NCBI RefSeq assembly: GCF_019649055.1
Contig: NW_026570264.1
Coordinates: forward strand, 682,001-746,000
Length of the DNA stretch: 64,000 bases
Origin: Paramacrobiotus metropolitanus
Taxonomy: Eukaryota > Tardigrada > Eutardigrada > Parachela > Macrobiotidae
Direction of reading: 5' to 3'
Made by a program: the position numbers and the translations under genes. Within the stretch, counting starts at the first letter, position 1; each line of letters begins with the position of its first letter. This document shows positions 13,973 through 29,976 of this stretch, one piece after another. A model generated the notes under the pieces. That model saw nothing but the letters and a program-made list of their open reading frames with translations. It did not search any database and was not told the DNA's origin.

Positions 13973-14810
13973 CGAGCAGCGTTTTTTTCTAAGCCACTAT
14001 ACTACGAGTACAACACACCGCAAACAAACACCACAATCAAGCGACCGGCATGAAGAACACTCTAAAAAATCAAACTCAGTCCCTGCGCGAGGGGCAGCTC
14101 CCTGCTGTAATTATTCGTACGCCTTCGGCGGCGCATATACTGCTTCCACGGATCACTCCCGCTCTCCCGTCCCCCCGCCGGTGTGCTTATTCGCCCCGAC
14201 GGCTCGTCCATCTTTGCTCCGGACGTGCTGCTATTGACGTTGACGATCACGCAGTCCGATTCGCCGACGCCCAGTCACGCGTGCATCGTCCCGGTATTCT
14301 GCGTGAAAATGCTGGACGACAATCCCTGGTCAACCTCGTTATTCCAGGCGATGGCCTCCTTCGAAGTCCGGTATTTCAGGGCGTAAGAAATGGGGCGAAG
14401 GTCTCCTTGAGGAGGACGGGGGCGTTGTGCGAGAGGTTGGGGATGATGGTCGGTTAGCCGAAGTTGCCACCGGAGGCGTGGCTGATGGGTTCCCCGCCCA
14501 CGAGGACGCGGAAGCCGGCCAACTGGGCGTCGGCGATGGTCTGCTTGTATAAAGCGACGCCGGCCGCCTTGTTCAGATCGGCATCCTCGGCGACAACCAC
14601 GGCGTGATTCCCGTTCTGCTCCTGCAACAGGCGGCCGAAGCGGGCCTGCACGGTGTTGGCTACTTTCAGCCAACACATTTTACATTTCATATTTATTAAG
14701 CATTTTTCAGCACTATATTTATGACATTAACATCAAGCCGTGAGTTTGAAACAGGGAAAAATCCCACTTAAATAAAGCCGAATTAATATATATTAAAGCA
14801 ACTACACCTA
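13973..14810 (-). pseudogene. ALDH7A1 (antiquitin) pseudogene repeat, copy A
   Basis: Read on the minus strand, this repeat encodes broken pieces of antiquitin-type aldehyde dehydrogenase. They include the segment around EDADLN, a joined stretch [16 protein letters not shown], then [15 protein letters not shown] and the C-terminal [21 protein letters not shown] region (here [17 protein letters not shown]). A large internal part is missing, including the region that normally holds the catalytic cysteine. A stop falls after the GGNF motif and the frame shifts afterwards. About 95 bp of probable 3' untranslated sequence precede the left boundary. The unit is about 99% identical to 29140-29976, in the same orientation. 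Antiquitin oxidises alpha-aminoadipic semialdehyde and betaine aldehyde; this copy cannot do so. Confidence 0.85.
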
Positions 14811-14855
14811 AGAAGAAATGCGATACTGTATAAGTAGATATGACTCATCAATTAT

Positions 14856-14945
14856 TTAAAAATGGCGGCACTTACGTAATAAATTGGAGTTGGGAGCTAT
14901 ACCTTCCAGCTGTAATTCCCTGTTGGACTTTATTACTATAGTTCC
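14856..14945 (+). repeat. Left terminal inverted repeat of the Polinton
   Basis: Begins TTAAAAATGGCGGC and matches the complement of 29048-29138 with about ten differences. Inside it, 14886-14901 and 14937-14952 (the latter extending 7 bp past the TIR) form a near-perfect 16-bp stem around GGAGTTGGGA. Confidence 0.85.
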
Positions 14946-14952
14946 CAACTCC

Positions 14953-15486
14953 AGCATACGAGTCATTTCAACAGTGTACATGTATACTGTATAAGATGGT
15001 ACGCAGTATATTACACATATACAGTACATTCAAACACACATTGTTTACATTCTTTTCCCGCGTGGAGCGGCACCAACACACAAGCTCAAATGGCTCGTCA
15101 GCAATGTTGCTGCACAGCATACGCGTCTTTGCTGCTTAATTGTTTATCACCGTAGTAGTTACTAGTTATCCTGCATTTATGTTACACATAATTATCTTCT
15201 ACATTACCATGAGTATTAATTGATTATCGGGAGTGCACACTGCCTGGCATATAAATCTGGACTGTACATGTGCGCAATGCACTATATGATTACACAGTGC
15301 ATTATACAGTTTTAATGCTCTATTCGACCAGTTGTTTACATACTTCTACAGCATGGAGGGACTTGCACAGCACTGCGTCTAGCTCGCTAAAGCCTTTTAA
15401 CGTACAGTAAGTGACATATAATTACTTTTCAGTGGATATAACTATTTGCTCTATTCTATTCGCAACTTATTTATACATATATAATC
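14953..15486. other. Left subterminal region of the Polinton, no gene
   Basis: A/T-rich DNA with repeated ACAGT/TGTAC words. A donor-like CAGTAAGTG near 15403 hints at an untranslated exon, but no coding exon was found. Confidence 0.4.
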
Positions 15487-16003
15487 ATGAAAACTAACAG
15501 GTACGATAGAATACTATTTTCTTTACTACTATACATTATGACTGTACTGTGTAATCAAGTTTTACAGTTATTTGCAGTCTGGCGGTATATTGCGTACATG
15601 CTTTTGCGTGCGTGCAGATCAACTGGAAAAAGTCCGCCAGGGTCGCCGCAAATTTTTTTCCACTAGAGCTAATGTCGCATTTCTATTAACAAATACTCCA
15701 CTAATTGCAGAAGTGATGGATTTCTTGCACACGAAGTAAGTGAAGCAAATGTTTTTATTTCATATTGCGTTGTAACACATGCTATATTTTTTATGTGCAA
15801 ATAGTTTCGGGGATGCTACAAGCAACGGGGGCGCGGGTGGAAAAAGTTGGCCTGAACTTCTCAAAGATTTTTTCCACCTTGTCAACGGTATGGTGCAATT
15901 TGCTGATTTTGCAGTTTTTTTACATCGGAGTATTTATTACTATATGCTCGTATGTTCACTCAATGCTTTTATAACGAAAAATACATTTCGTACTGAATTT
16001 TAA
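15487..16003 (+). CDS. Polinton accessory protein, three exons, unknown function
   Basis: Exons 15487-15550, 15618-15735 and 15805-16003 join in phase at GT-AG introns of 67 and 69 bp, the same size class as the polymerase introns, giving 126 residues. The start is an ATG followed by a basic stretch and a hydrophobic segment (residues about 9-22), which could be a signal peptide or anchor. The middle is basic (KVRQGRRKFF). The third exon begins with a Gly-rich loop and ends with a Phe/Tyr-rich segment. No homologue is recognised. It lies between the left TIR and the leftward TBP gene. The evidence is splice consensus, phase agreement and intron size; there is no family match. Confidence 0.5.
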
Positions 16004-16170
16004 TTAGTTTAATTAATGAGCAATGTACTGTACTGTACTGCACTGTATATGTAGTATGTATCACATACTTTAAAGGGTAAACGTTTTTACTTTTATTACT
16101 AAATTAACAACTACTGCTTACTAATGCCACGCAACAGAAATCTGCAACGATAACTTTTTGGTAATTTTAT

Positions 16171-16710
16171 TTATTGCTGTAGTACATTTTCTAATAACAA
16201 TCGCAATTCGTTTTCAGCAGTTTGAAGAGTATCAGCATCTTTTGCACCTAATAAATTAATTTTTCCAGAATGGAAAATCATCGCCGTACAACCTTGAAGC
16301 CGGACTCGCATGGCCGGGAATAATTCAGGTTCAAACATGGCATCGACTTTTGCTCTTATTGAGTTGTATAATTTTTCTAAACTAAGAAATTTCCCAAAAT
16401 TAAAAGTGGCGACAATGTTAACAATTCGTGGATTCTTTACCGATGCTTTTTGATAGCCATATTTTTGCAGTTTCCGGCAATAATGATGCAATAACGCGAG
16501 AGCATCGTTGATGGACTTTGCACCATTAACTGTGATCTTGCCGTTGCGGTACACTTGGCAGTGCGATTTCTGCGGACGAATGGAACGGAGAAGAAGCCCG
16601 GAATATTTATGTGGTGCATAATGAGAAAGCGGAGCGCGCTCGTATAAGCTGGGTAAGTCAATTGCGCAGCCGAGGTCAGCAGTTGCAATTACGTTAGTTA
16701 TCTTCGCCAT
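16171..16710 (-). CDS. TATA-binding-protein (TBP/TRF) homologue in a Polinton
   Basis: The 179 residues form the two-repeat saddle of TBP and little else. Repeat 1 (about 4-88) has INVIAT-like ITNVIATADLGC and NGKITVNGAKS. Repeat 2 (about 94-178) has IVNIVATFNFG, FEPELFPAMRVRL and SGKINLLGAKD. Canonical TBP has the matching SGKxxxTGAK and YEPELFPGL motifs. In known TBP, pairs of Phe wedge into DNA; here repeat 2 keeps Phe at both sites while repeat 1 has Tyr. TBP nucleates transcription pre-initiation complexes at TATA promoters. The gene is leftward, overlaps the 3' end of the upstream 152-codon gene by 17 bp, and sits well inside the TIRs. It could have been captured from a host TBP or TRF gene. 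It is divergent from host-type TBP and intronless. Confidence 0.88.
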   Translation of the reverse strand: MAKITNVIATADLGCAIDLPSLYERAPLSHYAPHKYSGLLLRSIRPQKSHCQVYRNGKITVNGAKSINDALALLHHYCRKLQKYGYQKASVKNPRIVNIVATFNFGKFLSLEKLYNSIRAKVDAMFEPELFPAMRVRLQGCTAMIFHSGKINLLGAKDADTLQTAENELRLLLENVLQQ

Positions 16711-17152
16711 TCAGCCAATTTGCAAACGTCTCCGCTTTCGCAAGCGTTGTTTGTGGTAATGAAGTAAGCTCCTTAAACTTCGGGCACCCAATGTCTTCAA
16801 GATTAAACACTTCAGGCAGATAATTTTCCAAAATCTTTAGCTTTTCTAATCCTTTGGCAAAAAACGTTAGACGCGCAGGTCGTTCACCAATAAGCTCTAG
16901 CATATCCTGAATGGCACTAGCAATGTCTAAGTATAAATAATCTCCACGATTATGCCAGACAAGTCCGTGCGAGTGGCGCGATTGGCTCCTAAATTCAACG
17001 CGGTAATGATTAAAGTGGGATGGAATGGTGAATGTGTAGCACCTGCTAACACTGGTTTGGCAATCACAAAATGCCAGCTGTTTTATAAGCCGTTGGGAGC
17101 CAGCGATAAACCAATCAATATCCAAGACAACCCTCCGCTTTGAATTCTCCAT
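16694..17152 (-). CDS. Polinton accessory protein A (AKG...GCP...NW family)
   Basis: A 152-residue protein whose closest visible relative is the 187-residue protein at 23466-24029 in the same element. Shared features in order: an N-terminal V-x-DI-x-W segment, F-x-AKG in the middle, then NL-x-x-x-GCP-x-F and a C-terminal NWL/NWM. Similar AKG/GCP proteins occur in arthropod and Maverick contexts as far as I recall, with an exonuclease- or RNase H-like fold suspected, but I cannot show catalytic residues. It starts 40 bp from the divergent ATPase gene and overlaps the TBP homologue by 17 bp, so the two leftward genes probably share a transcript. Confidence 0.7.
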   Translation of the reverse strand: MENSKRRVVLDIDWFIAGSQRLIKQLAFCDCQTSVSRCYTFTIPSHFNHYRVEFRSQSRHSHGLVWHNRGDYLYLDIASAIQDMLELIGERPARLTFFAKGLEKLKILENYLPEVFNLEDIGCPKFKELTSLPQTTLAKAETFANWLNGEDN

Positions 17153-17192
17153 TCTGCTGCCGGTACGCTAGCAATAGCTCCTCCCTTTGGAA

Positions 17193-17888
17193 ATGGAGTC
17201 CTTTAATAGGTGTCCGCGCACGACAGCTGATTTGAGAATCCGATTGCCCGCTTCAGTTCTTGTTGTGGGGCCAACGACTTCGGGGAAAACCACGTATGTG
17301 TCAAAATTAATTATGGAGCGCGATAAATTATTTGACCAACCATTTGGACGAATTATTTTGGTGTACGGAGAAATGCAGCCAGCATACGAAATGCTTCAGC
17401 GAAAAATCCCTGGGATTGAACTGACAAAAAATATTCAGCAAATTGTGGAGGATGAAAATTATTTTGATGGTAAACAAAATATTTTGTTGATACTGGATGA
17501 CGTGACAAGCGGTTTGGCGAAGAATGAGCATTTATCTAAACTTTTCACTCAAAAAGTACACCATGAACGGCTTTGTGTATTTCTATTATTCAATAACCTA
17601 TATAAACAAGGGTCTGCTATGCGAGACGTTCATCTTAATGCGCAATATCTTATCCTGTTCAAAAATAATCGTGATGTGAACCAAATCAAGATTCTCGAAA
17701 GGCAGACTGGTTTAAAACATCTCAGCGGAGCTTACGAGGAAATCGGTCAGGAACCATTTCAACCTCTCATTTTGGATATGAAACCGGACACCCCTGCCTA
17801 TTTAAGGATTCGTTCAGCAATATTACCGGGAGAGTTGACAAAAATTTACATCGATCCACAAACGACAAACTTGCCTAAGAATGTGTGA
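17193..17888 (+). CDS. A32-like genome-packaging ATPase
   Basis: A P-loop ATPase of 231 residues of the FtsK/HerA-type packaging family, which pumps viral DNA into preformed capsids. Walker A is GPTTSGKT (residues about 26-33) and Walker B is ILLILDD (about 97-103). A downstream NLYKQG-x(12)-AQY segment fits the sensor region of this family. I start at the ATG at 17193, because an upstream in-frame TTG at 17187 is unlikely to be used. It overlaps the next gene by 8 bp and opens the rightward structural cassette. Confidence 0.92.
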   Translation: MESFNRCPRTTADLRIRLPASVLVVGPTTSGKTTYVSKLIMERDKLFDQPFGRIILVYGEMQPAYEMLQRKIPGIELTKNIQQIVEDENYFDGKQNILLILDDVTSGLAKNEHLSKLFTQKVHHERLCVFLLFNNLYKQGSAMRDVHLNAQYLILFKNNRDVNQIKILERQTGLKHLSGAYEEIGQEPFQPLILDMKPDTPAYLRIRSAILPGELTKIYIDPQTTNLPKNV

Positions 17889-18210
17889 TCAGATTTTAAA
17901 AGACTTTGCTCCGTTTCTCCTTACCCTGCGATCGCTGAAACCCAAGCAGCGTCGTTTTCTTTTGGAAAATATTTCGAAACGACAACTTCGCTGTTTTGAA
18001 GAAATCTGTCTAAATTTGGTGAAGAATTCAGTGCCTCTGACCGCCGAACAGCTTAAGGTGTGTCAACGTTGGCGTCGACCATTAAAGCTGATTGCCCTCA
18101 AAAAATATCCTTTACGAAGCAAGAGGGAAATATTATTACAGCGCGGAGGATTCTTACCTGCGGTTCTACCTGTATTGGCAGCTGTTTTGGGAACTGCTTT
18201 ACTAAAATGA
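17881..18210 (+). CDS. Small basic Polinton protein with hydrophobic C-terminus
   Basis: A 109-residue protein: Leu/Lys/Arg-rich for the first 90 residues, with the motif YPLRSKREILLQRGG, then a hydrophobic tail rich in Leu, Ala, Val and Pro. Proteins with the same basic-then-GGFLP-hydrophobic layout occur beside the capsid genes in other Polintons and adintoviruses, where a virion or membrane-active role is suspected. That role is inference. Its stop overlaps the next start as ATGA. Confidence 0.7.
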   Translation: MCDQILKDFAPFLLTLRSLKPKQRRFLLENISKRQLRCFEEICLNLVKNSVPLTAEQLKVCQRWRRPLKLIALKKYPLRSKREILLQRGGFLPAVLPVLAAVLGTALLK

Positions 18211-18704
18211 AACCAGAAGTGCATTATATTATCCCGGTGAGCGAAATGAAGAAACTTGCCAGCGACACGGCTGGTCGCATTGCAACGGATGTTCAATTAC
18301 AACAGCAGCCTACTGAAGCTGTAGATATTGTGAGACTTGATGACTTGATGAAAGAAATCATTTCAAGGAATGCCCTGAGCGAGTGGGAAAAGGCAGAATT
18401 GTTATCAAGAAATTTGGCTCGTTTTTTGGCGCTGAAGGAATCGGCGTTCGGTCCTGACCAAATGGTTATTCCACCACCAGCATCTGTGCCACCGATTCCA
18501 GTACAACTATTAAAGAAGCCATGGGTACCACCTAATATGCCTGATCGTATGTTAGATGCTTTCCCTCCTATTCCACCTGCACCGCCGGCGAAACGCAAAC
18601 GTGCAAAGCGAGAAGTATTTGATGAAAAAACTTTACAAGTCGAAGGTCCCATCGGTTCAAGAACTAAATCCCAGTTCAACTGGATGACTGTCAATAACAA
18701 ATGA
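18207..18704 (+). CDS. Polinton-conserved protein of unknown function
   Basis: I take the ATG at 18207 because it overlaps the previous stop (ATGA); an open frame further upstream from 18060 lies inside that gene. The 165 residues start with a hydrophobic YIIPVSEM segment, followed by a helical LDDLM...LSEWEKAELLSRNLARFL block, a proline-rich linker and a KRKRAKR basic patch near the C-terminus. The LxxLM...LSxxEKxxLY-type block recurs in Polinton proteins from other animals. The role is unknown; a core or DNA-binding protein would fit the basic patch. Confidence 0.65.
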   Translation: MKPEVHYIIPVSEMKKLASDTAGRIATDVQLQQQPTEAVDIVRLDDLMKEIISRNALSEWEKAELLSRNLARFLALKESAFGPDQMVIPPPASVPPIPVQLLKKPWVPPNMPDRMLDAFPPIPPAPPAKRKRAKREVFDEKTLQVEGPIGSRTKSQFNWMTVNNK

Positions 18705-18776
18705 GTGGTGGATGTGTTCCCTTCTCTTTGTCTTTGGGAGAAGGTATGACTTGGAATTGCACATCTAGCTGTTGCG

Positions 18777-19748
18777 ATGGATCAAGCAGCAGCAACGACG
18801 AAGACGATGGCCAATCTACTGTTGCGACAAGCGTATCTGAACCCCCAACACCCGGGCAGCTTTACGGGGATTCAAAAGTTTCGCAACCACTATCTACCAG
18901 CAACAAGCTACCAACAGACGCGGGAGCAGCTAGAACATCTGGATCCATATACAGTCCACAAATCTCGACGAAAAAAGTTCAAAAGAAACCCCGTAGTTGT
19001 CTCAAACCTAGCGGAGCAATATCAAGCCGATCTGGCAGACATGTCAAAATATGCGAAACAGAACAAGGGGTACCGTTGGATACTATTTGTGATCGACGTC
19101 TTCAGCAAGAAAGTAAGCTGTCAACTACTAAAGAATAAAAGCGGTACCGAAGTTAAATTTGGTTTGGAAAAGGTCTTTGCAGAACTTGGCGTACCTATTA
19201 AATTGCAAACCGACAAAGGTCTTGAATTTTACAATAAGGATGTTAAGAATTTTTTGACGGTCCAGAAGGTTTTCCTGTTCTCGTCTGAAAATAAAGCAAT
19301 CAAAGCATCCTTAGCTGAGAATGGCATACGTAATCTAAAGAAACGTATATGGCAATTATTTCGACACCGACAGTCTAAAGTGTACTGGGACGTTTTGAGT
19401 GATTTGGTTAAGAGTTACAACAACGCAATCCATTCTTCGCATAAAGTCACCCCCAATGATGTTAGCCAGTCTAATTCTCTGCAAATATTCAATCGATTAT
19501 ATGCAGAATTATTAATGGGAAAACAGAAAAAACCAAAGTACGGCGTGGGTGACACAGTACGAGTAGCCATCGACAAAACACTTTTTGAAAAAGGATACGA
19601 GTCAACATTTAAGGAGGAAATTTACAAAATACATCAAGTGCTACCACAACAACCAGAGCCGCTTTATGTATTAGTGGATGAAGACGGGGACTTAATTCGC
19701 GGAAAATATTACGAAGCCGAACTCAGTCGTGTGAGAAATGACTCATAA
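18777..19748 (+). CDS. Retroviral-type DDE integrase
   Basis: A 323-residue rve-family integrase that would join the linear element to target DNA. Core acidic residues lie in QADLADMS (first Asp, about residue 85), LQTDKGLEF (second Asp, about 145) and KASLAENGIRNLK (Glu, about 180), which gives the expected D-35-E spacing. The C-terminal quarter has KPKYGVGDTVR and a YEAELSRV end, as in the SH3/chromo-like tail of Polinton integrases. Its last 11 bp overlap the next gene. Confidence 0.9.
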   Translation: MDQAAATTKTMANLLLRQAYLNPQHPGSFTGIQKFRNHYLPATSYQQTREQLEHLDPYTVHKSRRKKFKRNPVVVSNLAEQYQADLADMSKYAKQNKGYRWILFVIDVFSKKVSCQLLKNKSGTEVKFGLEKVFAELGVPIKLQTDKGLEFYNKDVKNFLTVQKVFLFSSENKAIKASLAENGIRNLKKRIWQLFRHRQSKVYWDVLSDLVKSYNNAIHSSHKVTPNDVSQSNSLQIFNRLYAELLMGKQKKPKYGVGDTVRVAIDKTLFEKGYESTFKEEIYKIHQVLPQQPEPLYVLVDEDGDLIRGKYYEAELSRVRNDS

Positions 19749-20667
19749 CAGCTTCTATGTCACGCTTCCATCTGATGCCTGTATGCAGCAGTTTCCAAAG
19801 AATAATGCAGCTGAATGGACAACAAAGCTAAAGAGTGTTTTATCACTACCGGGACAATGGGAAATGGCATTGGTGGAAATACAGTATCCTAATTCAATGT
19901 ACAATTTACCCAGCCCCCAAACATTGCACGTAGACCAAATTACATCCATGGATAGCAACGGTGTTTTCGTAATGGATCGCGACACAATTACAGTACCTGC
20001 AGGAATCTATGAGAAAAGTGATATCATTGATTTTATAAACGGTAAAGTGCCGCGGTTAAAGCCGTTCGGCGATTCTGCATTGGAAAAACAGGCTTTCCAA
20101 TTCGAATTATTAAAAACTGAACCCAAGCTCAAAGTAAAGTTTCCTAGCGTGCGGGTTTTTCTGGATTTTCCTCCCTCATCTTTGCATCTATCCCGTATGC
20201 TGGGATTCAAAGAACGACGATTTTCTGCAGCACATTCCGAACAGTATGAAAATTTTTTGATGGAAAAAACGAATTTTGCTTCCGCAAGTACCACGCTGTC
20301 CGACCAGTTAAAGGCATTGGCAGAGCTGCAGCTCTTGGAAACTTCTGTACTAATGACGGCGGATAAACCTGTGAACATGCACATTGGGAACCAATCAATT
20401 TTTGTGTACTGCAACAAGTGTGACTACAATATTGTGGGTGATGAAACTATGCAACTTTTGCGCGCTTTCCCCATTAAAGCAAGTGTTCCGCGCTTCGAAA
20501 TTGTTTCGGAAAGGTTCGAGGATCCACATTATCTACCTGTTTTATACGATCGACTGGACACAATCGACATCAACATTGCAACTGATCTGGGAGAACCGGC
20601 AATTTTTCAGACTGGAAAATCAATGGTAAAGCTGCACTTTCGGCCCATTCAGTATTACTATCGCTAA
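19738..20667 (+). CDS. Penton-like minor capsid protein
   Basis: A 309-residue protein opening with FYVTLPSDAC, then a WEMALVEIQYPNSMYN segment. This opening is typical of the Polinton minor capsid (penton, single jelly-roll) protein found next to the major capsid gene. It ends 3 bp before the capsid start. It would form capsid vertices. The identification rests on these N-terminal motifs and gene order. Confidence 0.75.
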   Translation: MTHNSFYVTLPSDACMQQFPKNNAAEWTTKLKSVLSLPGQWEMALVEIQYPNSMYNLPSPQTLHVDQITSMDSNGVFVMDRDTITVPAGIYEKSDIIDFINGKVPRLKPFGDSALEKQAFQFELLKTEPKLKVKFPSVRVFLDFPPSSLHLSRMLGFKERRFSAAHSEQYENFLMEKTNFASASTTLSDQLKALAELQLLETSVLMTADKPVNMHIGNQSIFVYCNKCDYNIVGDETMQLLRAFPIKASVPRFEIVSERFEDPHYLPVLYDRLDTIDINIATDLGEPAIFQTGKSMVKLHFRPIQYYYR

Positions 20668-20670
20668 AAA

Positions 20671-22473
20671 ATGCCCGTTATCCTCTTTGAACCGTCACCA
20701 TCGTTCTATCTGGATTTATTTGCCGGGACCGCCACGGGTGCCGGTAGTCAGCACGGGTATGGAGCCGTCATGACACGGTATCGCGGAAGTTTAATGCAAA
20801 ATGGGAGTGGTTTTATGCTGCCCAATTTTCTGCGCGCAATGCTCAGTAAATTAGCGCATTTTGCGGCTCCGGTTATTAAAGCTGCCGCGCCACATGCTAG
20901 AGCAGCCATGGAAGCAGCAAAGCCTCACCTATGCGACGCAGCGACAACAGTTCTTAATGAGACGTCCAGGAAAGTAGGAGAAAAAATTTCGGAAGCACTC
21001 ACATCGCAAACTCAACAGCAAGGAGGCATCAAGCGGCTCAAGCAGCAGCACAAGAAAACGAAGAAGATCAAGAGACATTCCATACGATTGAAACGGCTTA
21101 AACGGATTCCCCGAGAGAATTTGAGGACGCATTTTAAAATGGCTTTTATTCTGGAAGGAAGCGTACCAGCTATGCAGGTTGAGTCGGATTTATTTTCCGT
21201 TCCAGCCACTCTCGCGGATTTTGTGCGGACAGAAGAAGAACGCATTCTACCGACCTCAGGCCAAACAGAAGAAATTAGTTCGGGAGAAATCTCTTTTTAC
21301 ATCCCACCATCAACATCAGCGTTGCTAGTGCTACCAGAAATTACGCTGGAAATGGATATTGCAATCAAAAAGCAAATTGCAGGACTTGGGGCGGCAACGC
21401 GTATTGAAAACACGGATCTGGTAGCACCAGTCAACCTCATAGCGCATTCTATATTCAGCTCGGTAGAGGTAACAATGGCGAACCGCCTGATAACTAATTC
21501 CACCCCATTGTATGCCTACCGAGCTTACTTGGAAAATTTGTTGGGATACACACCGGCTGCCCTTCAAAGCCAGGCAACAAGTGCAGGATTTTATTTTGAC
21601 AGCCCTGGCTATCTAGAAGATCATGCCAACAACGCTGGAGAAGTAACGCGAAAGGCCGTGTTTGTGACCAACGAGTACGTTCCTTTTAGCGCCAAATTGT
21701 GCACCGACATTTTCCAGCAGGGAAAAAATCTGATCACCGGTGTACCGCTACATGTGCGCCTCATCCTAAATAAGCCGGAATTCTATTTGCGGTCGTATGC
21801 CAATCTTCCAGTAGACACTTTTAAAGCATACCTTCGTAATCCACGACTATATGTTAAACGTTTCGTGCCTAATCCGGTTTACCTGTCTGCGGTCACGGCC
21901 CAATTATCGACAAAAACAGTGAAATATCCCATAGAGCGAGTATGTATGCGCGTTAATGACATTGGCAACATTCAGAGCACGGTGCTGGCTAATTTACACA
22001 TTGGCGCAGTACCCAAATGTGTTTTTGTGGGATTCGTGAAGAGCTCGAGCTTTCACGGGCTGCGCCGAGGTAATCCATTTAACTTTGAACATTTCAACCT
22101 CAACTATATAAGCGTCGAAGTCGACGGACAATCGTATCCTGCTCAAGCCTACCGACCAAATTTCGCCACGGGTGATTATTTACAATCATATGACGGCCTG
22201 TTGGAAACGCTTGGCCGCTTGCACGCACCGGACGGGGCGCTGCCATTTGACCGTAAAGCATTTGCGGAAGGTTTTGCTATTTGGGGATTCGACCTGACGC
22301 CTTCACGGACTGGCCGGGGACCAATGAGCACCGTGCGCCAAGGAAATCTGTCGATTCGTCTGCAGTTTGCCGCCCAATTAACTGAACCAATTATGGCGAT
22401 AACGATGATGGTGTGGGATAATATCATTGAAGTTAATTCACATCGCCAGTTGATTGCGGATTTTACTGCATAA
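20671..22473 (+). CDS. Major capsid protein fused to a pVI-like N-terminal region
   Basis: One 600-codon frame covers two proteins that are usually separate. Residues 1-156 carry GYGAVMTRYRGS, a hydrophobic/Ala-rich segment (about 50-100) and a strongly basic KKTKKIKRHSIRLKRLKR tail, like the small membrane-lytic or core protein upstream of MCP in other Polintons. An in-frame Met at 157 (ATG at 21139) starts MAFILEGS, the usual start of the double-jelly-roll hexon, which then fills the normal length of about 440-450 residues. The product may be a fusion, may be cut by the element's protease, or the MCP may start internally. No stop or frameshift separates the parts. Confidence 0.85.
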   Translation: MPVILFEPSPSFYLDLFAGTATGAGSQHGYGAVMTRYRGSLMQNGSGFMLPNFLRAMLSKLAHFAAPVIKAAAPHARAAMEAAKPHLCDAATTVLNETSRKVGEKISEALTSQTQQQGGIKRLKQQHKKTKKIKRHSIRLKRLKRIPRENLRTHFKMAFILEGSVPAMQVESDLFSVPATLADFVRTEEERILPTSGQTEEISSGEISFYIPPSTSALLVLPEITLEMDIAIKKQIAGLGAATRIENTDLVAPVNLIAHSIFSSVEVTMANRLITNSTPLYAYRAYLENLLGYTPAALQSQATSAGFYFDSPGYLEDHANNAGEVTRKAVFVTNEYVPFSAKLCTDIFQQGKNLITGVPLHVRLILNKPEFYLRSYANLPVDTFKAYLRNPRLYVKRFVPNPVYLSAVTAQLSTKTVKYPIERVCMRVNDIGNIQSTVLANLHIGAVPKCVFVGFVKSSSFHGLRRGNPFNFEHFNLNYISVEVDGQSYPAQAYRPNFATGDYLQSYDGLLETLGRLHAPDGALPFDRKAFAEGFAIWGFDLTPSRTGRGPMSTVRQGNLSIRLQFAAQLTEPIMAITMMVWDNIIEVNSHRQLIADFTA

Positions 22474-22607
22474 AAAGCACAGCGTAAGTGAGTGTGTAAG
22501 ATTTTGCACAAAAGTGTTGTTGCTTGAGCGGTACGCTTCAGGGGCGCAAGCGGGGGTGGGCGCGCTGTCGGCCTCTGACGACGCTGAAGTGAATCGTGAC
22601 GGATGTG

Positions 22608-22659
22608 GTAAACAATGGGCGACCGGAGCGCTTCGCGCTCTCGGTCGCCCGTTGTTTAC
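22608..22659. repeat. Near-perfect 24-bp hairpin between MCP and protease genes
   Basis: GTAAACAATGGGCGACCG then GAGCGC pairs with the downstream arm, with one bulged T, one mismatch and a 3-nt loop. It sits in the only sizeable gap (22474-22719) of the rightward cassette. It could act in 3'-end formation, replication or transcript processing; the sequence does not say which. Confidence 0.8.
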
Positions 22660-22719
22660 AGGACAAAATCAAAAGAATATTTTTAACGTTGCTGTTGTTG
22701 TATACAGACTGGCACTACA

Positions 22720-23241
22720 ATGGACACCGCTGAAATCAGCCATGTATTACGTTCAAGCGCGGTGACACGAGACGCTTTCATTGGTGTATTTGCTGCGGAC
22801 ATGTTACCATCTTTGCTTCCAGCCAAACTGCCATGGGCATGTGTTGTCAATACTGACGAAGCTGCAAAACCTGGCTCGCATTGGCTGGCGTTCTACCAGG
22901 CTGTACCAGGACAATTGGAATATTTTGACTCTTACGGACATGAACCATATTACTACGGCCGCCACATTGAAAATTTTTGCAAGAACGCTGGCAGAGTTAT
23001 TTCGCAAGCGCATCGTTTACAAATGGAATGGAGTACCGTGTGTGGACAGTACTGCTGCTTTTTTATTTTAAAACGATGCTCCGGCGAGTCGTTTACTTCT
23101 CTTATTCATTTATTTACCAGTAGCAAATCTTCGAATGATCGAATGGTTTGTGCTTATGTTAATTATTATTTCAGTTTGAAAACTGTAGTCCGTGATAACT
23201 CTATGCTTATACAGTCTGTTTTCCGCCAGTTAATGCAATAA
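22720..23241 (+). CDS. Adenain-like cysteine protease (maturation protease)
   Basis: A 173-residue Ulp1/adenain-type protease. The expected catalytic set is visible: His54 in GSHWLAFY, Asp70 in EYFDSYG, Gln101, and Cys108 in STVCGQYC, with the Gln-to-Cys spacing of seven residues as in adenain. In adenovirus-like systems this enzyme processes virion proteins. A plausible substrate here is the pVI-like/MCP fusion just upstream. It starts 61 bp after the hairpin. Confidence 0.88.
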   Translation: MDTAEISHVLRSSAVTRDAFIGVFAADMLPSLLPAKLPWACVVNTDEAAKPGSHWLAFYQAVPGQLEYFDSYGHEPYYYGRHIENFCKNAGRVISQAHRLQMEWSTVCGQYCCFFILKRCSGESFTSLIHLFTSSKSSNDRMVCAYVNYYFSLKTVVRDNSMLIQSVFRQLMQ

Positions 23242-23362
23242 AGTCACGTCACCAACGCCAGTTTTTTCACGTACTGTTTGTATAGGAGTAAAAAATAATT
23301 TGCTGTGCACCAAAGTATTTTGCCACCACAGCGTGACGTTGCGCTGCATCCGTTTTGATGCT

Positions 23363-23371
23363 ATATATAAA
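23363..23371 (+). promoter_or_regulatory. TATA box upstream of accessory protein B
   Basis: TATATATAA lies 95 bp before the ATG at 23466, with no gene in between. Its placement suits a TATA promoter for that gene. Confidence 0.5.
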
Positions 23372-23465
23372 ATACTTTGTCAGTGCGTAACTTACAAATA
23401 TAACAGTTATTTCATCTCATTACGCAGCGGAAACTAACGATTTCTGATTCTGTTTTGTTCAAAGA

Positions 23466-24029
23466 ATGGTTTACCATATTGTTGTAGACATTAAGTGGTA
23501 TACGCTTAATGGGAAGCCAATTATTACGTCACTTGCAATAAGTTCTGTCGAATTTTATTGCCTTTATTATACCACTTTTGCGCTAGCGCCAAACAATTAC
23601 ATTGTTAATAAATTTGGCATTTGTTCTTCGGATAATGATGCTGTGTTCGATAAAGCTTTCTCAGAGTTAGAACATCAGTTAAATCGATCGTTTAAAAATT
23701 ATCTCCGCTATGTTGATGATCCTGCCGTTGTCGTTTTCTATGCAAAAGGGGGACAAAAGTGTCTCATTCTTCAACAACTGCTCAAATCTGATGTCATTAA
23801 TCTTGATACACTTGGCTGTCCGCGTTTTGCTGCTCTAAGTAACGACAAGTGCTACAGTCCTAACAAAGCGCAATCGTACTCTAATTGGATGCTGGACTAC
23901 TATTTAAAAAGCCGTACGAAATGCCTGCTTTGCCGAATGCCGATTCCTGAAGAAAGAGCTACCCATCGACTGCAACGACACTGCCGCAGCAAAAGACCAG
24001 ATCAGAATTCTTACTGGGGTATGCGTTAA
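23466..24029 (+). CDS. Polinton accessory protein B, paralogue of accessory protein A
   Basis: A 187-residue protein sharing V-x-DI-x-W, F-x-AKG, NL-x-x-LGCP-x-F and NWM with the 152-residue protein at 16694-17152. B has an extra C-terminal region with CLLCRMP...H...HC, a possible Cys2-His-Cys zinc site. It has its own TATA box and lies just upstream of the polymerase gene. Two diverged copies within one element suggest an internal duplication with specialisation. Function unknown. Confidence 0.7.
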   Translation: MVYHIVVDIKWYTLNGKPIITSLAISSVEFYCLYYTTFALAPNNYIVNKFGICSSDNDAVFDKAFSELEHQLNRSFKNYLRYVDDPAVVVFYAKGGQKCLILQQLLKSDVINLDTLGCPRFAALSNDKCYSPNKAQSYSNWMLDYYLKSRTKCLLCRMPIPEERATHRLQRHCRSKRPDQNSYWGMR

Positions 24030-24261
24030 TATATATCTCGCTATTTTACAAAGATTTCGAGGTGGTCTATATTATTGCAGATGACCAAAAAAATAGATGT
24101 TGCATCCGCTGTGGCGCTGTGTTTCCTCCCTCGAACGCTGATTGCGCCTAATAAAAAACGTGTTGCGAATATTATCGCATCCAGCACGTTTCATCGAATG
24201 AGTCATTAAATTTTGTTGGCCGATGTAACTATAAAATGCTGTACGGAATTTTGCTTACACA

Positions 24262-24269
24262 TATAAATA
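24262..24269 (+). promoter_or_regulatory. TATA box of the polymerase gene
   Basis: TATAAATA lies 75 bp upstream of the ATG at 24337. The rest of the 24030-24336 gap holds no gene. Confidence 0.5.
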
Positions 24270-24336
24270 AGCTGCTTATATGAGGCTGGATTTCTGCGAA
24301 TAGCAAAGTACTTCCATCAGGTTGTTTTTCTACACC

Positions 24337-27300
24337 ATGACACAAATTCCTGATCCGTCAATACCGTCAACTGCCCTTGAGACCGACGCGGAAACTGAAT
24401 TTGCAGATAGTGCTCTCTTTAATCATAACTACGCGCTTCTTGATCATAATTATTCTGCAGCTCCGGCTGGTGTACCTGCGCAGCGTTTAGAAGAGCTTGA
24501 TCCAGATTTGTATGATATTAAAGAACATTATGAGTTGGAAAAAACCGGAGCCAAATATTCGCAAAAGTTTTCAGTTTTATTTGAGAGTTATAAGTGTCAG
24601 ATAAACGGCCTTGAAAATTTATCGTTCAAGTACGCAGTGAAGACCATAACTCTGCTGTTGAAAGATATCCTTGAAACGGTGATTTCCAAAATACCTGCGC
24701 ACAACTTGGTGAGAATTCGCATATACCAGGCGGCACTGCAGTACCCTATTTGGATGCCACCTATTCAACGCGATCAGTTGACTATCGAGCGATGGATGAC
24801 GACAATCAAAAGAATTTTGAATTCAAATCAAGCGTTTTTATTGGACGAGTCTTTTGAACTGTCAGTGCAGCATACAGATACACCAATCGGCTCATGCAGA
24901 AAGAACGTCTCCCAGTTGTTGCGGCAAATTTTGGACAAAAAACGGTGCATCACCCAGATTCGAAACTCGGACAGTTTATGTATGGCTAGAGCAATTGTGG
25001 TCGCTAAAGCGCATGCGGATGGCGATAAAGAATTTTATACAAAGCTCTACCGAACCAAGAAACTGCAGGATGAAAAAACCAGAGAATTGCTGCGGGCTGC
25101 CCGGTTGCCAAATAGAGAATACAGCCTGGAAGACGTTCCTCGGTTTGAAGAAGTTCTGCCAAATTATCAGATTATTGTAGTATCTGTCGACCACGGAAAC
25201 TCAGTTGTCTACTGTGGCGCTTATGCTGAGAAGCGTATTATGTTGCTCGATCATGACCGGCATTTTGATGTTCTGACATCTTTGCCGGCTTACTTCGAGC
25301 ATCACTACTACTGTTACCGTTGCATGAAAGGCTACAATCAACGAGAAGACCACCGGTGTGAGTTTAAATGTCACCAATGTCTGTCTGCAGCGTGCAAGAT
25401 GCAAAAAGATTCAAAAATACCTTGTTCGGAATGTAATCGCGACTTTTATGGCCAGGAGTGTTTTGAAAGGCACAAGTCTGGAACCAGTCCCATCTGTTCA
25501 AAGTTTTTTGTATGTGGAATATGCAAATCTTTCGTTTCTCTTGTAAAACGTCGAATGCGGACAAATTACGACGCACCTCGAGATAACAGAAGAGATGCTG
25601 ACAACTGCGATGACGACGAAGACGAACCGGAAATCGAACTGGATATTGACGATCAGCAACATCGTTGTGGTGAAGTGTACTGCGCAACCTGTTCACTCTT
25701 TCACTTGCCGGAAGAAAGCCATGTCTGCTATATGCAGCCCATCGAACTTACGGATAACGAGAAAGCGAAACATCAAAACGAAAAATTTGCATACTTCGAC
25801 CTCGAAACCTACCAAGATGACACAGGTGAATTCCGAGTGAATCTAGCAGTCATCGCCACGAAGGATGAGAAGTTTGTGCTCCCTGAGGATGGAAACATTA
25901 ATGGCGACATCGCAAATGCTCTTGGGGATTTCATTTTCAGCGAACGTTTTCGGGGATACACTTTTATTGCGCATAATTTAAAGGTAAAAAATATCGAAAT
26001 CAACAGCAGCAGCAGCTTATTCATAACTGATTGATGTGGTTTGTATTTCAGGGGTTCGACGGGTATTTCCTGTTAAACTATTTAGTAAAAAATGGTGTTA
26101 TTCCACACCCACTGATTTTTAATGGTAGTAAAATTATGCAAATGGATTTCAGTAAACTCAAAATAAAATTTCGAGATTCCATGAACTACGTGCCATCGTC
26201 ACTAAGGAATTTCGCGAAGGCGTTTGGTTTGCAAGAAACTAAAGGAGATTTTCCACACAAGCTGAATAAACCCGAAAATTGGAACAAGATCATCCCTTGG
26301 CCAGATCGGCATGACTACGGTTACCAATCCATGAAAAGATGTGAGCGGAAACGTTCCATAAAATGGTTTCGCAAGGAACGACGCCGTCATCACAATCAGT
26401 TTGATTTTAATGCACATTTCATCAAGTATGTCCGATCTTTTCTTATTAATAATACACTCGCTATATGCAACTGTTTCACAGGTACTGTTCCCAGGACGTT
26501 CTCGTACTACAACAAGCATGTGAAAAATTTCGAATGCTTTTCCAACAAGTATCTGGTGGATTATGTCCATTTGCTTCTGGCCTTACAACCCCTGGAATGT
26601 GCAATTATTTTTGGAGAGCGCGAATGCTGAAGAAGAGCCAAATTGCTTTAATCGGTCCACCAGGACAGGGAAAGAAATCATCTGTAAAAGCAGAACGGTG
26701 GCTACGATCGATAGAACTGGATAACGATACAAAACTGGAAAAAGAATTTCGAATCGGGCACTGGACCGTTGATGGCTTCCATTCAGAAACCAAAACAGTT
26801 TACGAATTTTTAGGTCTGTCACAGGATAATACGTTTAATCACTTGCGATCTTTGACATTTACCGACAAAATATTTCTGTCTCTAGGATGTATGTGGCACG
26901 GCTGCAGCGACTGTACCACGAAAAGCATGCATGCACCCGTTTCTTGGTAAACCAATGGAAGAGGTTCAGAAAGCGACTTTTTTGCGCCTTGATGCAATAA
27001 AAACTCTGGGATACACGATTGTATCGATTTGGGAGCACGATTACGACATGAAATTAGCATCTGACATTGAGTTTCGAAAGCTAACTGAGCTCGCCAACGT
27101 GATGGAGCCGTTGCATCCGCGGGATGCCTTTACTGGTGGTCGAACAAATGCAATAAAGCTTTACCATAAATGCGGACCAGGGGAGAAAATTTATTCACTT
27201 GACGTTATTAGCGAATATCCATACATCAACAAAAATTTGCCCTACCCCGTTGGACCACCGGTTGTTATTACTAACGACTTTCCACCAGTGGAAAAAATAT

Positions 27301-28669
27301 TTGGAGTGGTAAAATGTCGCATTATTCCACCACCGTCTTTATTCCTTCCAGTGCTGCCCTACCGAACGGATAAGCTAACATTCCCGTTATGCGCGAGGTG
27401 CGTGAAAGAGCGTGTTAACTCTCCCTGTGATCATGAGGATGACGATAGGGCTCTGGAAGGAACGGGGTGTACACCGGAAATTCATCGAGCGTTAGAAGTT
27501 GGCTACCGCATCGATAAAATTTATTCTGCGTGGCACTACCCCGAGCAAATGCAATATCTATTCAGGGAGTACATTGACTTGTTTTTGAAGCTGAAAACTG
27601 AAGCGTCTGGCTATCCTTCAAACTGTCACACAAACGAGGAGAAAGACTTTTATGTTAAAGAATTCCTTGGTAAAGAAAATATTCAGCTGGATAAAGATAA
27701 TATTGCTAAAAATGATGCGCTCAGAGCGCTTTGCAAGCTTATGTTGAATAGTTTTTGGTAAGAATCGTGAAGCTGCCAAAAACCCGACTTTATTAATTAA
27801 CTATGGATGAATTGTTTTTTTTTACAGGGGAAAGTTTGGGCAGCAGGAAGACCGTTCCAACACGGCAATGGTGGAGAAGAAAGAGGTCTTTCATGACTTT
27901 TTATTTTCAAATAAATACGAAGTTGCTGGATTCGACTTGGTTACGGATGAAGTCATGGCCGTACAATACCGTTCGAAGAAGGATTATATAGTAACGAATA
28001 AGAAAACCAATGTTGTCATTGCGGCTTTCACTACTGCTTATGCACGATTGCACCTCCTCAAATTTATGGAGATGGTTGGGGACCGCCTACTATATCATGA
28101 TACCGGTATGCAGTAATAATAGTGATTTTGTTTTTGCCTTCTTTATTCATAGGGTTTTGGTTCGTTGCAGATAGCATTTTCTATGTTCACAAAGACGAAC
28201 TGCCTGACCCACCAACGGGAACTTGTCTTGGCGACTTGTCATCATCGCTGGAACCTAACGAGCACATAGAAAAATTTGTGGCGCTTGGTACACCATTAAC
28301 TTCCAATAATTAATTATTCCTGAGTACTATACGTGTGTATTACTTTTCTTTATAGGGCCTAAAAGCTACGCTTATCGTACCAACACTGGTCACGAAACAA
28401 TAAAAGTGAAGGGATTTACGTTAACACGGCAGGCCAGAAAACAGCTGAATCTGGAAAGTTTGAAGGAATTGCTACTGGAAAGCCTTGCACCGCCAGATGA
28501 ACCAAACGATATTATGGTTAATTATCCGTTCAACATTACGCGAAATAAGCGCAAGTTGGAGGTTCTGTCTACGGAAATGAATAAGCGCTTCAGACTTACC
28601 TACTCAAAACGTCGAATTGTCGACACCGAATTTCATACTCGTCCCTGGGGTGATGTTTCCGGAGAATAG
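24337..28669 (+). CDS. Family B DNA polymerase, seven exons, frameshifted
   Basis: Exons: 24337-25983, 26052-26425, 26482-26813, 26886-27757, 27828-28105, 28171-28287 and 28356-28669; all introns are GT-AG, 56-72 bp. I start at ATG 24337, because 24322 is only a TTG. The N-terminus (residues about 200-320) has a CITQIRNSDSLC segment like the OTU-type domain of Polinton polymerases, then a Cys/His cluster (about 320-460). Exonuclease motif I is FDLET (about residue 486); motif II (AHNLK/GFDG) spans intron 1. Polymerase motif A is LDVISEYP (27198-27221, Glu where Leu is usual), B is KLMLNSFW/GKFG across intron 4, and C (DTDS) is split by intron 5. A GCATGCATGC direct repeat at 26925-26934 shifts the frame to a stop at 26948 before the palm domain, so full-length enzyme is not encoded as read. 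Confidence 0.9.
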
Positions 28670-28828
28670 GCCTTCAATTTCCAGTACCGTACAGTTGTTA
28701 ATAATAGTTTTAATATTATAGCTAATTCCAAAAAATGCTTCCAGCAATATTATTAGAATCAGCATGATGACAATGCAGGAGCCTATTGCTGCCTCACAGA
28801 AGTTCTTTTTGCACACAATGCGAGCCAT
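28604..28828 (-). CDS. Possible small membrane protein at the Polinton right end
   Basis: An ATG at 28828 opens a 74-codon frame with a strong hydrophobic helix (about residues 14-34) and two N-glycosylation-type NxS/T sites. It overlaps the last 66 bp of the polymerase gene in antisense. A real gene is possible because nothing else fills this end, but no homologue is recognised. Confidence 0.3.
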   Translation of the reverse strand: MARIVCKKNFCEAAIGSCIVIMLILIILLEAFFGISYNIKTIINNCTVLEIEGLFSGNITPGTSMKFGVDNSTF

Positions 28829-29047
28829 CTTAGCAAGACTATGTTCGGGTATTGTGTTTGTTTTCTTTGAACATTGTTTCTTTAATAGTTACTTCAATAG
28901 AAAAGTTGCATTAAACATCGCAGCTTAACTCTAATTAAAGAGGTATGAATAAAGGCGCAGACCCATACGTTCCATGTAAACTGCATTGTATCTACAGTTG
29001 TAAAGTATATGCAGTGTACAAACTTACTGATTCATAAAGTAGATCTA

Positions 29048-29138
29048 GGAACTATAGTTATAAAGTCCAACCGGAAAATTACAGCTGGAAGGTGTAGCTC
29101 CCAACTCCAGTTTATGACGTAAGCGCCGCCATTTTTAA
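29048..29138 (-). repeat. Right terminal inverted repeat of the Polinton
   Basis: Complement of the left TIR (14856-14945), ending GCCGCCATTTTTAA. It is followed after one base by the second ALDH7A1 pseudogene repeat, with no spacer. Confidence 0.85.
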
Positions 29139-29139
29139 G

Positions 29140-29976
29140 CGAGCAGCGTTTTTTTCTAAGCCACTATACTACGAGTACAACACACCGCAAACAAACACCA
29201 CAATCAAGCGACCGGCATGAAGAACACTCTAAAAAATCAAACTCAGTCCCTGCGCGAGGGGCAGCTCCCTGCTGTAATTATTCGTACGCCTTCGGCGGCG
29301 CATATACTGCTTCCACGGATCACTCCCGCTCTCCCGTCCCCCCGCCGGTGTGCTTATTCGCCCCGACGGCTCGTCCATCTTTGCTCCGGACGTGCTGCTA
29401 TTGACGTTGACGATCACGCAGTCCGATTCGCCGACGCCCAATCACGCGTGCATCGTCCCGGTATTCTGCGGGAAAATGCTGGACGGCAATCCCTGGTCAA
29501 CCTCGTTATTCCAGGCGATGGCCTCCTTCGAAGTCCGGTATTTCAGGGCGTAAGAAATGGGGCGAAGGTCTCCTTGAGGAGGACGGGGCGTTGTGCGAGA
29601 GGTTGGGGATGATGGTCGGTTAGCCGAAGTTGCCACCGGAGGCGTGGCTGATGGGTTCCCCGCCCACGAGGACGCGGAAGCCGGCCAACTGGGCGTCGGC
29701 GATGGTCTGCTTGTATAAAGCGACGCCGGCCGCCTTGTTCAGATCGGCATCCTCGGCGACAACCACGGCGTGATTCCCGTTCTGCTCCTGCAACAGGCGG
29801 CCGAAGCGGGCCTGCACGGTGTTGGCTACTTTCAGCCAACACATTTTACATTTCATATTTATTAAGCATTTTTCAGCACTATATTTATGACATTAACATC
29901 AAGCCGTGAGTTTGAAACAGGGAAAAATCCCACTTAAATAAAGCCGAATTAATATATATTAAAGCAACTACACCTA
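29140..29976 (-). pseudogene. ALDH7A1 (antiquitin) pseudogene repeat, copy B
   Basis: Same unit and orientation as 13973-14810, with only a few substitutions and one G lost from a homopolymer (GGGGG versus GGGG near 29585). It has the same internal deletion and broken frame. Its left boundary coincides with the Polinton end. Its right boundary falls at the same base of the unit as in copy A, so it is a defined repeat and not a random duplication. Confidence 0.85.

Follow-up and report, generated by a model that had tools for sequence, protein, structure and literature searches.

The locus described here raises the question of whether a Polinton can carry a TATA-binding protein (TBP) of its own and, if so, whether this protein serves the transcription of the element. 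Few transcription factors are as strongly conserved as TBP, and the residues with which it contacts bases do not differ among the archaeal, yeast, human, and tardigrade TBPs compared in this study. The window, i.e., the whole 64,000-nucleotide stretch of DNA that was analyzed, belongs to the 169.8-Mb genome of the tardigrade Paramacrobiotus metropolitanus. An initial annotation, made from the letters of the window, had proposed that one of its open reading frames (ORFs) is a TBP homologue carried by a Polinton, and that the element may direct its own transcription. The features that bear on this proposal are collected in Table 1.

Table 1. Coordinates of the Polinton in the window and of its parts
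Feature	Position	Strand	Basis and remarks
Polinton element	about 14811..29139	.	terminal repeats; left end set by eye against other copies, +/- few bases
Left inverted terminal segment	14856..14945	+	91% inverted identity to 29048-29138 over 91 nt
Element-encoded TBP, 179 aa	16171..16710	-	open ORF, Pfam profile, phmmer, structure model, Foldseek
152-aa ORF, 5' of TBP, 17-nt overlap	16694..17152	-	Pfam: no match; paralogue of ORF 23466-24029, 26% identity
Packaging-type ATPase	17187..17888	+	best Pfam match Pox_A32, E=8e-4, below cut-off; relatives adjoin TBP elsewhere in the genome
TATTTAAGG, candidate core promoter element, within ATPase gene	17799..17807	+	82 bp 5' of ATG at 17881
109-aa ORF	17881..18210	+	weak match to adenovirus core protein X, PF05829, E=2.4e-4, 21.4 bits (cut-off 25)
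rve integrase	18777..19748	+	PF00665, E=3.8e-8
Second ATTTAAG	19607..19613	+	131 bp 5' of ATG at 19738
309-aa gene	19738..20667	+	kept in 20/20 loci examined
600-aa frame; double-jelly-roll major capsid protein from about residue 175	20671..22473	+	
Adenain-type C5 protease	22720..23241	+	PF00770, E=2.8e-5, above cut-off
187-aa ORF, paralogue of 152-aa ORF	23466..24029	+	26% identity
PolB, several frames	26031..27761	+	PF03175, E=8.1e-13 and 5.3e-18, in frames 26031-26630 and 26931-27761
Right inverted terminal segment	29048..29138	-	91% inverted match to 14856-14945

Sequence and structure agree on the identity of the gene product. Both TBP repeats pointed out in the initial annotation are visible in the ORF, where NGKITVNGAK, SGKINLLGAK, and FEPELFP were all found, and the Pfam TBP profile (PF00352) matches it in two stretches, one for each repeat, with E=1.8e-35 and 121.1 bits (Pfam curated cut-off 22.9). 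A phmmer search of the PDB sequences returned 35 distinct sequences at E≤1 (best 2e-19), all of them named TBP, TFIID, or TBP fusion except one, "ECU04_1440 protein". The structure prediction that had been proposed as a check gave a TBP fold, with a mean pLDDT of 94.7 and a TM score of 0.89 to human TBP; all 44 Foldseek hits of this model in PDB at E≤0.001 were TBP chains or complexes. The protein is predicted to adopt the saddle fold with two pseudo-symmetric repeats, and is small, consisting of the core alone without an N-terminal region. PHROGs returned nothing for either the TBP or the 152-aa ORF. The tardigrade's own TBP, which is the best Pfam TBP match in the genome (C4:406165-406662), has human TBP as the nearest PDB sequence to its core exon and shares 28% identity with the window TBP. 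The first core exon of the host gene contains a frame change within an A run, possibly an assembly error.

The element that surrounds the gene has the hallmarks of a Polinton: terminal inverted repeats (TIRs), an rve integrase, a protein-primed PolB, an adenain-type protease, and a double-jelly-roll capsid protein. As had been claimed, the TBP gene lies inside the TIRs, starting 1.36 kb in from the left end of the element, and overlaps another element gene, the 152-aa ORF. No RNA polymerase was seen in the window element. Its terminal segment has 40 matches in the genome, among which 13 facing pairs, 13.1-14.6 kb apart, were counted by eye, and about 45 bp of the terminus are seemingly missing from the right end.

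Several further features of this family may be recorded. Facing termini only 4.4 kb apart (C73:439639-444014) probably belong to an element with an internal deletion. The window element is flanked on both sides by an 838-bp direct repeat (13973-14810 and 29140-29976, 99.5% identity), of which the genome holds no further near-identical copies and which looks like target DNA doubled around an insertion with a cut right end. The left termini of the family are of two sequence types, AGAAGAAACAG and AGTAGTAAT, and the former carries TGTATAAA near the end. The capsid frame of the window joins a basic N-terminal part and the capsid part in a single frame; in many other copies, the capsid match begins only near residue 120-160, or there is an internal stop. 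In the PolB region (24322-28669), the frame gaps resemble short GT-AG introns by eye (about 27760-27828 and 28113-28172). From its position, one might guess at a minor capsid role for the 309-aa gene. One of the two paralogous ORFs usually lies 5' of TBP in other elements, as seen in 7 of 20 loci, so that the pair may have moved as a cassette.

The association of TBP with Polintons is not a one-off capture in this genome. With the window TBP as the query, 150 places were scored of 295 candidates, a few genes being counted twice, and 150 ATPase places were listed for a neighborhood test. Of the 150 TBP places, 113 have one of the listed Polinton ATPases no more than 12 kb away, compared with an expectation of about 2%. 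Three main gene orders were observed among the listed places: TBP divergent from and adjoining the ATPase (40), TBP on the ATPase strand 6-9 kb downstream (46), and TBP on the ATPase strand immediately upstream (19). At one of the 37 listed TBP places that have no listed ATPase nearby (C123), other element genes are present. In 20 loci of 10 kb, a length shorter than an element, which were picked to cover the gene orders and are thus a non-random set, TBP is accompanied by integrase (20), the 309-aa gene (20), ATPase (19), the capsid gene (19), protease (14), and PolB (7). Within the window family, 15 of 18 further copies with the TBP side have a full-length open TBP frame; the frame is broken in two (L046 and L048), and L047 is without the first 22 residues. 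The absence of the gene from all other copies, named in the initial annotation as a refuting outcome, is therefore not what is observed. The existence of a Polinton-borne TBP, as the initial annotation had it, is thus confirmed: the profile, the fold, the gene neighborhood, and the number of copies all bear it out. TFIIB matches were found at only three places in the genome, indicating that TFIIB was not multiplied alongside the TBPs.

In the TBP phylogeny, a long branch with full support lies between the element and the cellular TBPs. Three subgroups, namely L011+L012, L010+L013+L014, and lineage III, are supported both in the TBP tree and in the ATPase tree, which indicates that the TBP gene travelled with the element. 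The deeper forks lack resolution, and the TBP tree places neither the window family nor the long lineage-III branch. Scans of IMG/VR viral contigs with two TBP alignments and the host TBP exon gave 47, 20, and 9 pattern stretches, none of which was confirmed; hence, the tree is without giant-virus TBP sequences and does not tell apart a host, a giant-virus, or an older origin of the gene. Element TBP is under purifying selection, with dN/dS of 0.07-0.28 in the 12 of 15 pairs for which dS is computable, and its occurrence extends to lineages so far apart that synonymous changes between them approach saturation. A profile search of the protein database matched 40 proteins, and by eye about 21 of these carry the element residue signature (17 like lineages I/II and 4 like lineage III); two more have a partial signature, and the remainder are cellular-looking or divergent, including two named plant and Plasmodium TBPs. 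With about 21 of 40 outside matches bearing the signature, element-type TBP is probably not the oddity of one tardigrade.

The signature resides in the DNA-reading surface. We compared 33 element-type TBPs (25 from this genome and 8 from outside) with the host, yeast, human, and Sulfolobus TBPs; the set leaves aside nine near-identical copies of the window family, broken or split copies, and L027. An earlier count over 45 rows was discarded, one of the rows being a host exon. Positions follow yeast numbering, anchored on the aligned yeast chain. The residues that kink DNA, Phe or Tyr at positions 99, 116, 190, and 207, are kept in all 33 proteins, as is N159; N69 is kept in 31 of 32 readable proteins, K120 in 31 of 33, and the TFIIB-contacting E188 in 30 of 33, the E186/E188 contacts being absent from some lineage-II copies (L016 and L018). 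The eight positions L114, V122, T124, I194, V203, L205, V213, and T215, by contrast, are identical among the four cellular TBPs, the archaeal one included, and are changed in nearly all element TBPs. The replacements are L114Q (33/33), T215L (32/33), T124N (30/33, with Ile in the other three), V203T (30/33), V122T (27/33, with Ile in six), and V213N (26/33), while L205 is V, M, N, H, or K in all 33 proteins, and I194 is changed in 32; A113C, at a neighboring position, is likewise universal (33/33). In the window TBP, the canonical base-contact residues L114, T124, V203, L205, V213, and T215 are all replaced. A laboratory TBP that reads TGTAAA reportedly carries I194F, V203T, and L205V, two of which, V203T and L205V, coincide with the common element state. 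It should be noted that T-A-V/M at positions 203-205 resembles the first repeat of cellular TBPs, so that part of the change may not amount to a new specificity.

A TATTTAAG-like motif in element genes is a candidate for the core promoter element. The motif was picked after inspection of the data. In 44 upstream windows of lineage II, some of which are coding, ATTTAAG is the top 7-mer (12 occurrences vs 0.68 in shuffles, z 13.7; the next 7-mer has 7.9), and in 5 of 6 lineage-II loci it occurs at most 111 bp upstream of the ATPase homology. In coding DNA, tested against 60 synonymous-codon shuffles, it is in excess in lineage I (15 vs 7.0, shuffle maximum 12) and lineage II (15 vs 4.7, shuffle maximum 9), on the coding strand only in both; this test is not decisive alone, as other 7-mers do equally well and ATTTAAG falls outside the top 15 in lineage I. 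Lineage III shows no excess of ATTTAAG (2 vs 4.2) and has instead TATTAAG (10 vs 3.9, shuffle maximum 8) and ATTAAGG (15 vs 4.5). The window element contains ATTTAAG twice, at 17800 and 19607, both on the plus strand and 81 and 131 bp 5' of an ATG; of the three occurrences of TATTTAAGG in the window, one is within the element. Over the 20 loci, the strand count of TATTAAGG is 19:0, nearly all in lineage III, but we place little weight on this bias, since the seven loci of lineage III fall into three groups of close relatives and, in most of them, the site 5' of the 309-aa gene is part of integrase coding DNA. TATAAA has no strand bias in the same loci (86:86). In five lineage-III elements (L022-L026), TATATAAAG is located about 50 bp 5' of the TBP gene; for the TBP genes of lineages I and II, no TATA box was identified. 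Two other candidates were dropped: TGTAAA, the laboratory site, was rejected as a general feature of element genes on the upstream-window counts, and TTTAAG 5' of the integrase in lineage II was disregarded, being read as part of coding sequence.

Codon usage within the ATPase gene provides a further line of evidence. The first ATTTAAG of the window covers Tyr-Leu-Arg of this gene. The codon of Leu206 is TTA in all 13 elements of lineages I and II (usage 0.28, p 6e-8 to 7e-8), and the adjoining Arg codon is AGG in 8 of 13 (p 2e-5 to 3e-5), where the p-values count related elements as independent. These two columns rank first and second among 43 conserved ATPase columns, and, of the 211 conserved columns taken from five genes in lineages I and II, none scores better than that of Leu206; at the other listed columns with a conserved Leu, three to six different codons are in use. 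Across the genome, the peptide pattern YLRxRSH has 105 matches, 78 of which are encoded with exactly TAT-TTA-AG. TTTAAG (nine elements) or TTTACG (L010 and L013) is followed, 57-99 bp on, by the ATG of a 108-112-aa ORF; in L020 the site is present but this ATG is missing, and in L021 the ATG is present and the site reads CTTACG. ORFs of this size occupy the position of the window ORF 17881-18210 in 11 of 12 other elements of lineages I and II. In lineage III, TTA is found at the Leu site in none of five readable ATPases, and one ATPase Ser column reaches p 9e-7, a result that fits less neatly. Three columns of the 309-aa gene, at 2e-5 to 9e-5 in lineages I and II, are without explanation. The unusual codon conservation in this gene falls at residues 46 and 238-246 of the window protein, the second group lying about 200 bp 5' of the capsid gene, and the columns may mark another overlapping signal.

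In our opinion, these animal Polintons encode an old, selected core-promoter factor of TBP fold with shifted specificity, which would use the host TFIIB and polymerase II; we assign this reading a probability of about 0.6. It draws directly on the gene, its fold and context, its copy number, the tree subgroups shared with the ATPase, purifying selection, residue replacement, motif excess, and codon constraint. From the sequences, we infer binding to TATTTAAG, recruitment of TFIIB and polymerase, and an early/late order. The element TBP would be an early product; in lineage III, its gene would be driven by an ordinary TATA box readable by host TBP. The protein would then bind boxes resembling TATTTAAG (in lineage III, TATTAAGG) that lie some 60-130 bp 5' of element coding starts, bend the DNA, and bring in host TFIIB and RNA polymerase II, so that the element genes could be turned on as a block, outside host promoter control. 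A fuller version, to which we give somewhat less than even odds, is that of a natural orthogonal transcription system, in which a re-evolved TBP and its own core promoter box (TATTTAAG for lineages I and II, TATTAAGG for lineage III), private to the elements, vary together, TFIIB and polymerase II are borrowed from the host, and the lineage-III TATA box acts as an early-to-late switch, much like a phage sigma factor placed in an animal nucleus. The earlier suggestion that the element may direct its own transcription gains indirect support from purifying selection, the changed DNA-reading surface, and the TATA-like motif near gene starts; binding and expression we infer.

Since TATTTAAG is A/T-rich, host TBP might read it too. 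The same property, a site close in sequence to the TATA box, together with the unchanged fold and the retained kinking residues, would suit a spare TBP of ordinary specificity that reads ordinary TATA boxes and supplies an extra dose in cells or stages with limiting host TBP. We regard this as unlikely, given that the eight base-contacting positions invariant in the four cellular TBPs are changed in nearly all element TBPs. A small, core-only protein that mostly keeps E188 could also act as a competitor of host transcription, sequestering TFIIB or TFIIA or sitting on host promoters in favor of the element. The loss of the contact residues from some lineage-II copies speaks against such a role, which would also leave the conserved motif near element genes without explanation, and we consider it distinctly improbable.

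A role outside transcription, in which the protein bends DNA at the element ends for replication, integration, or packaging, would fit the finding that, in several family copies, TGTATAAA is no more than about 30 bp away from the terminus. The codon-constrained motif, however, is internal and lies 5' of a gene start, and we find this proposal very doubtful. The broken copies L046 and L048 are what a captured gene without function would be expected to leave behind; low dN/dS, the open frames of 15 of 18 family copies, and the presence of the gene in distant lineages with nearly saturated synonymous sites make this the least credible of the explanations.

Should the core-promoter reading be correct, these elements would offer a natural, host-independent TBP-promoter pair in a unit small enough to be studied as a whole. 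The same reading would account for the control that animal Polintons, in which we saw no RNA polymerase here, can exert over their own genes.

Comparison with known systems places the window element among the Polintons/Mavericks, with which it shares termini, integrase, PolB, C5 protease, and double-jelly-roll capsid protein, and from which it differs by an additional TBP gene that has no precedent in the open papers searched. Maverick is listed among the superfamilies in a tardigrade transposon survey (PMC11071193). The initial annotation knew of no TBP in Polintons, and in the open full-text papers searched we likewise found no such report. The nearest case found is that of the mirusvirus-like elements of the alga Cymbomonas (CHeCMEs), in which TBP is sporadic, the capsid relatives are of the HK97 type, and no polymerase, ATPase, or double-jelly-roll genes were found (PMC10675990). 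These, too, are endogenous viral elements with a TBP, while the window element has a double-jelly-roll capsid protein and a putative packaging ATPase. Giant viruses such as Heterosigma akashiwo virus 01 likewise carry TBP in a virus-type genome; the folds match with a TM score of 0.79, whereas identity is 17%, and, in the one case consulted, the TBP-bearing virus also encodes RNA polymerase (PMC11464507), which was not seen in the window element. With cellular TBP (PF00352), the element protein shares the two-repeat saddle fold, the kinking aromatics, N159, and most of the TFIIB stirrup; it differs in the replaced base-reading residues, the missing N-terminal region, its mobile carrier, and its low identity to the host's TBP. 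Finally, published accounts of a laboratory TBP describe three second-repeat changes that allow TGTAAA to be read (PMC10005294, PMC2731028). The change in the element TBPs resembles that altered-specificity protein, but is natural, extends over both repeats, and has TATTTAAG as its candidate site.
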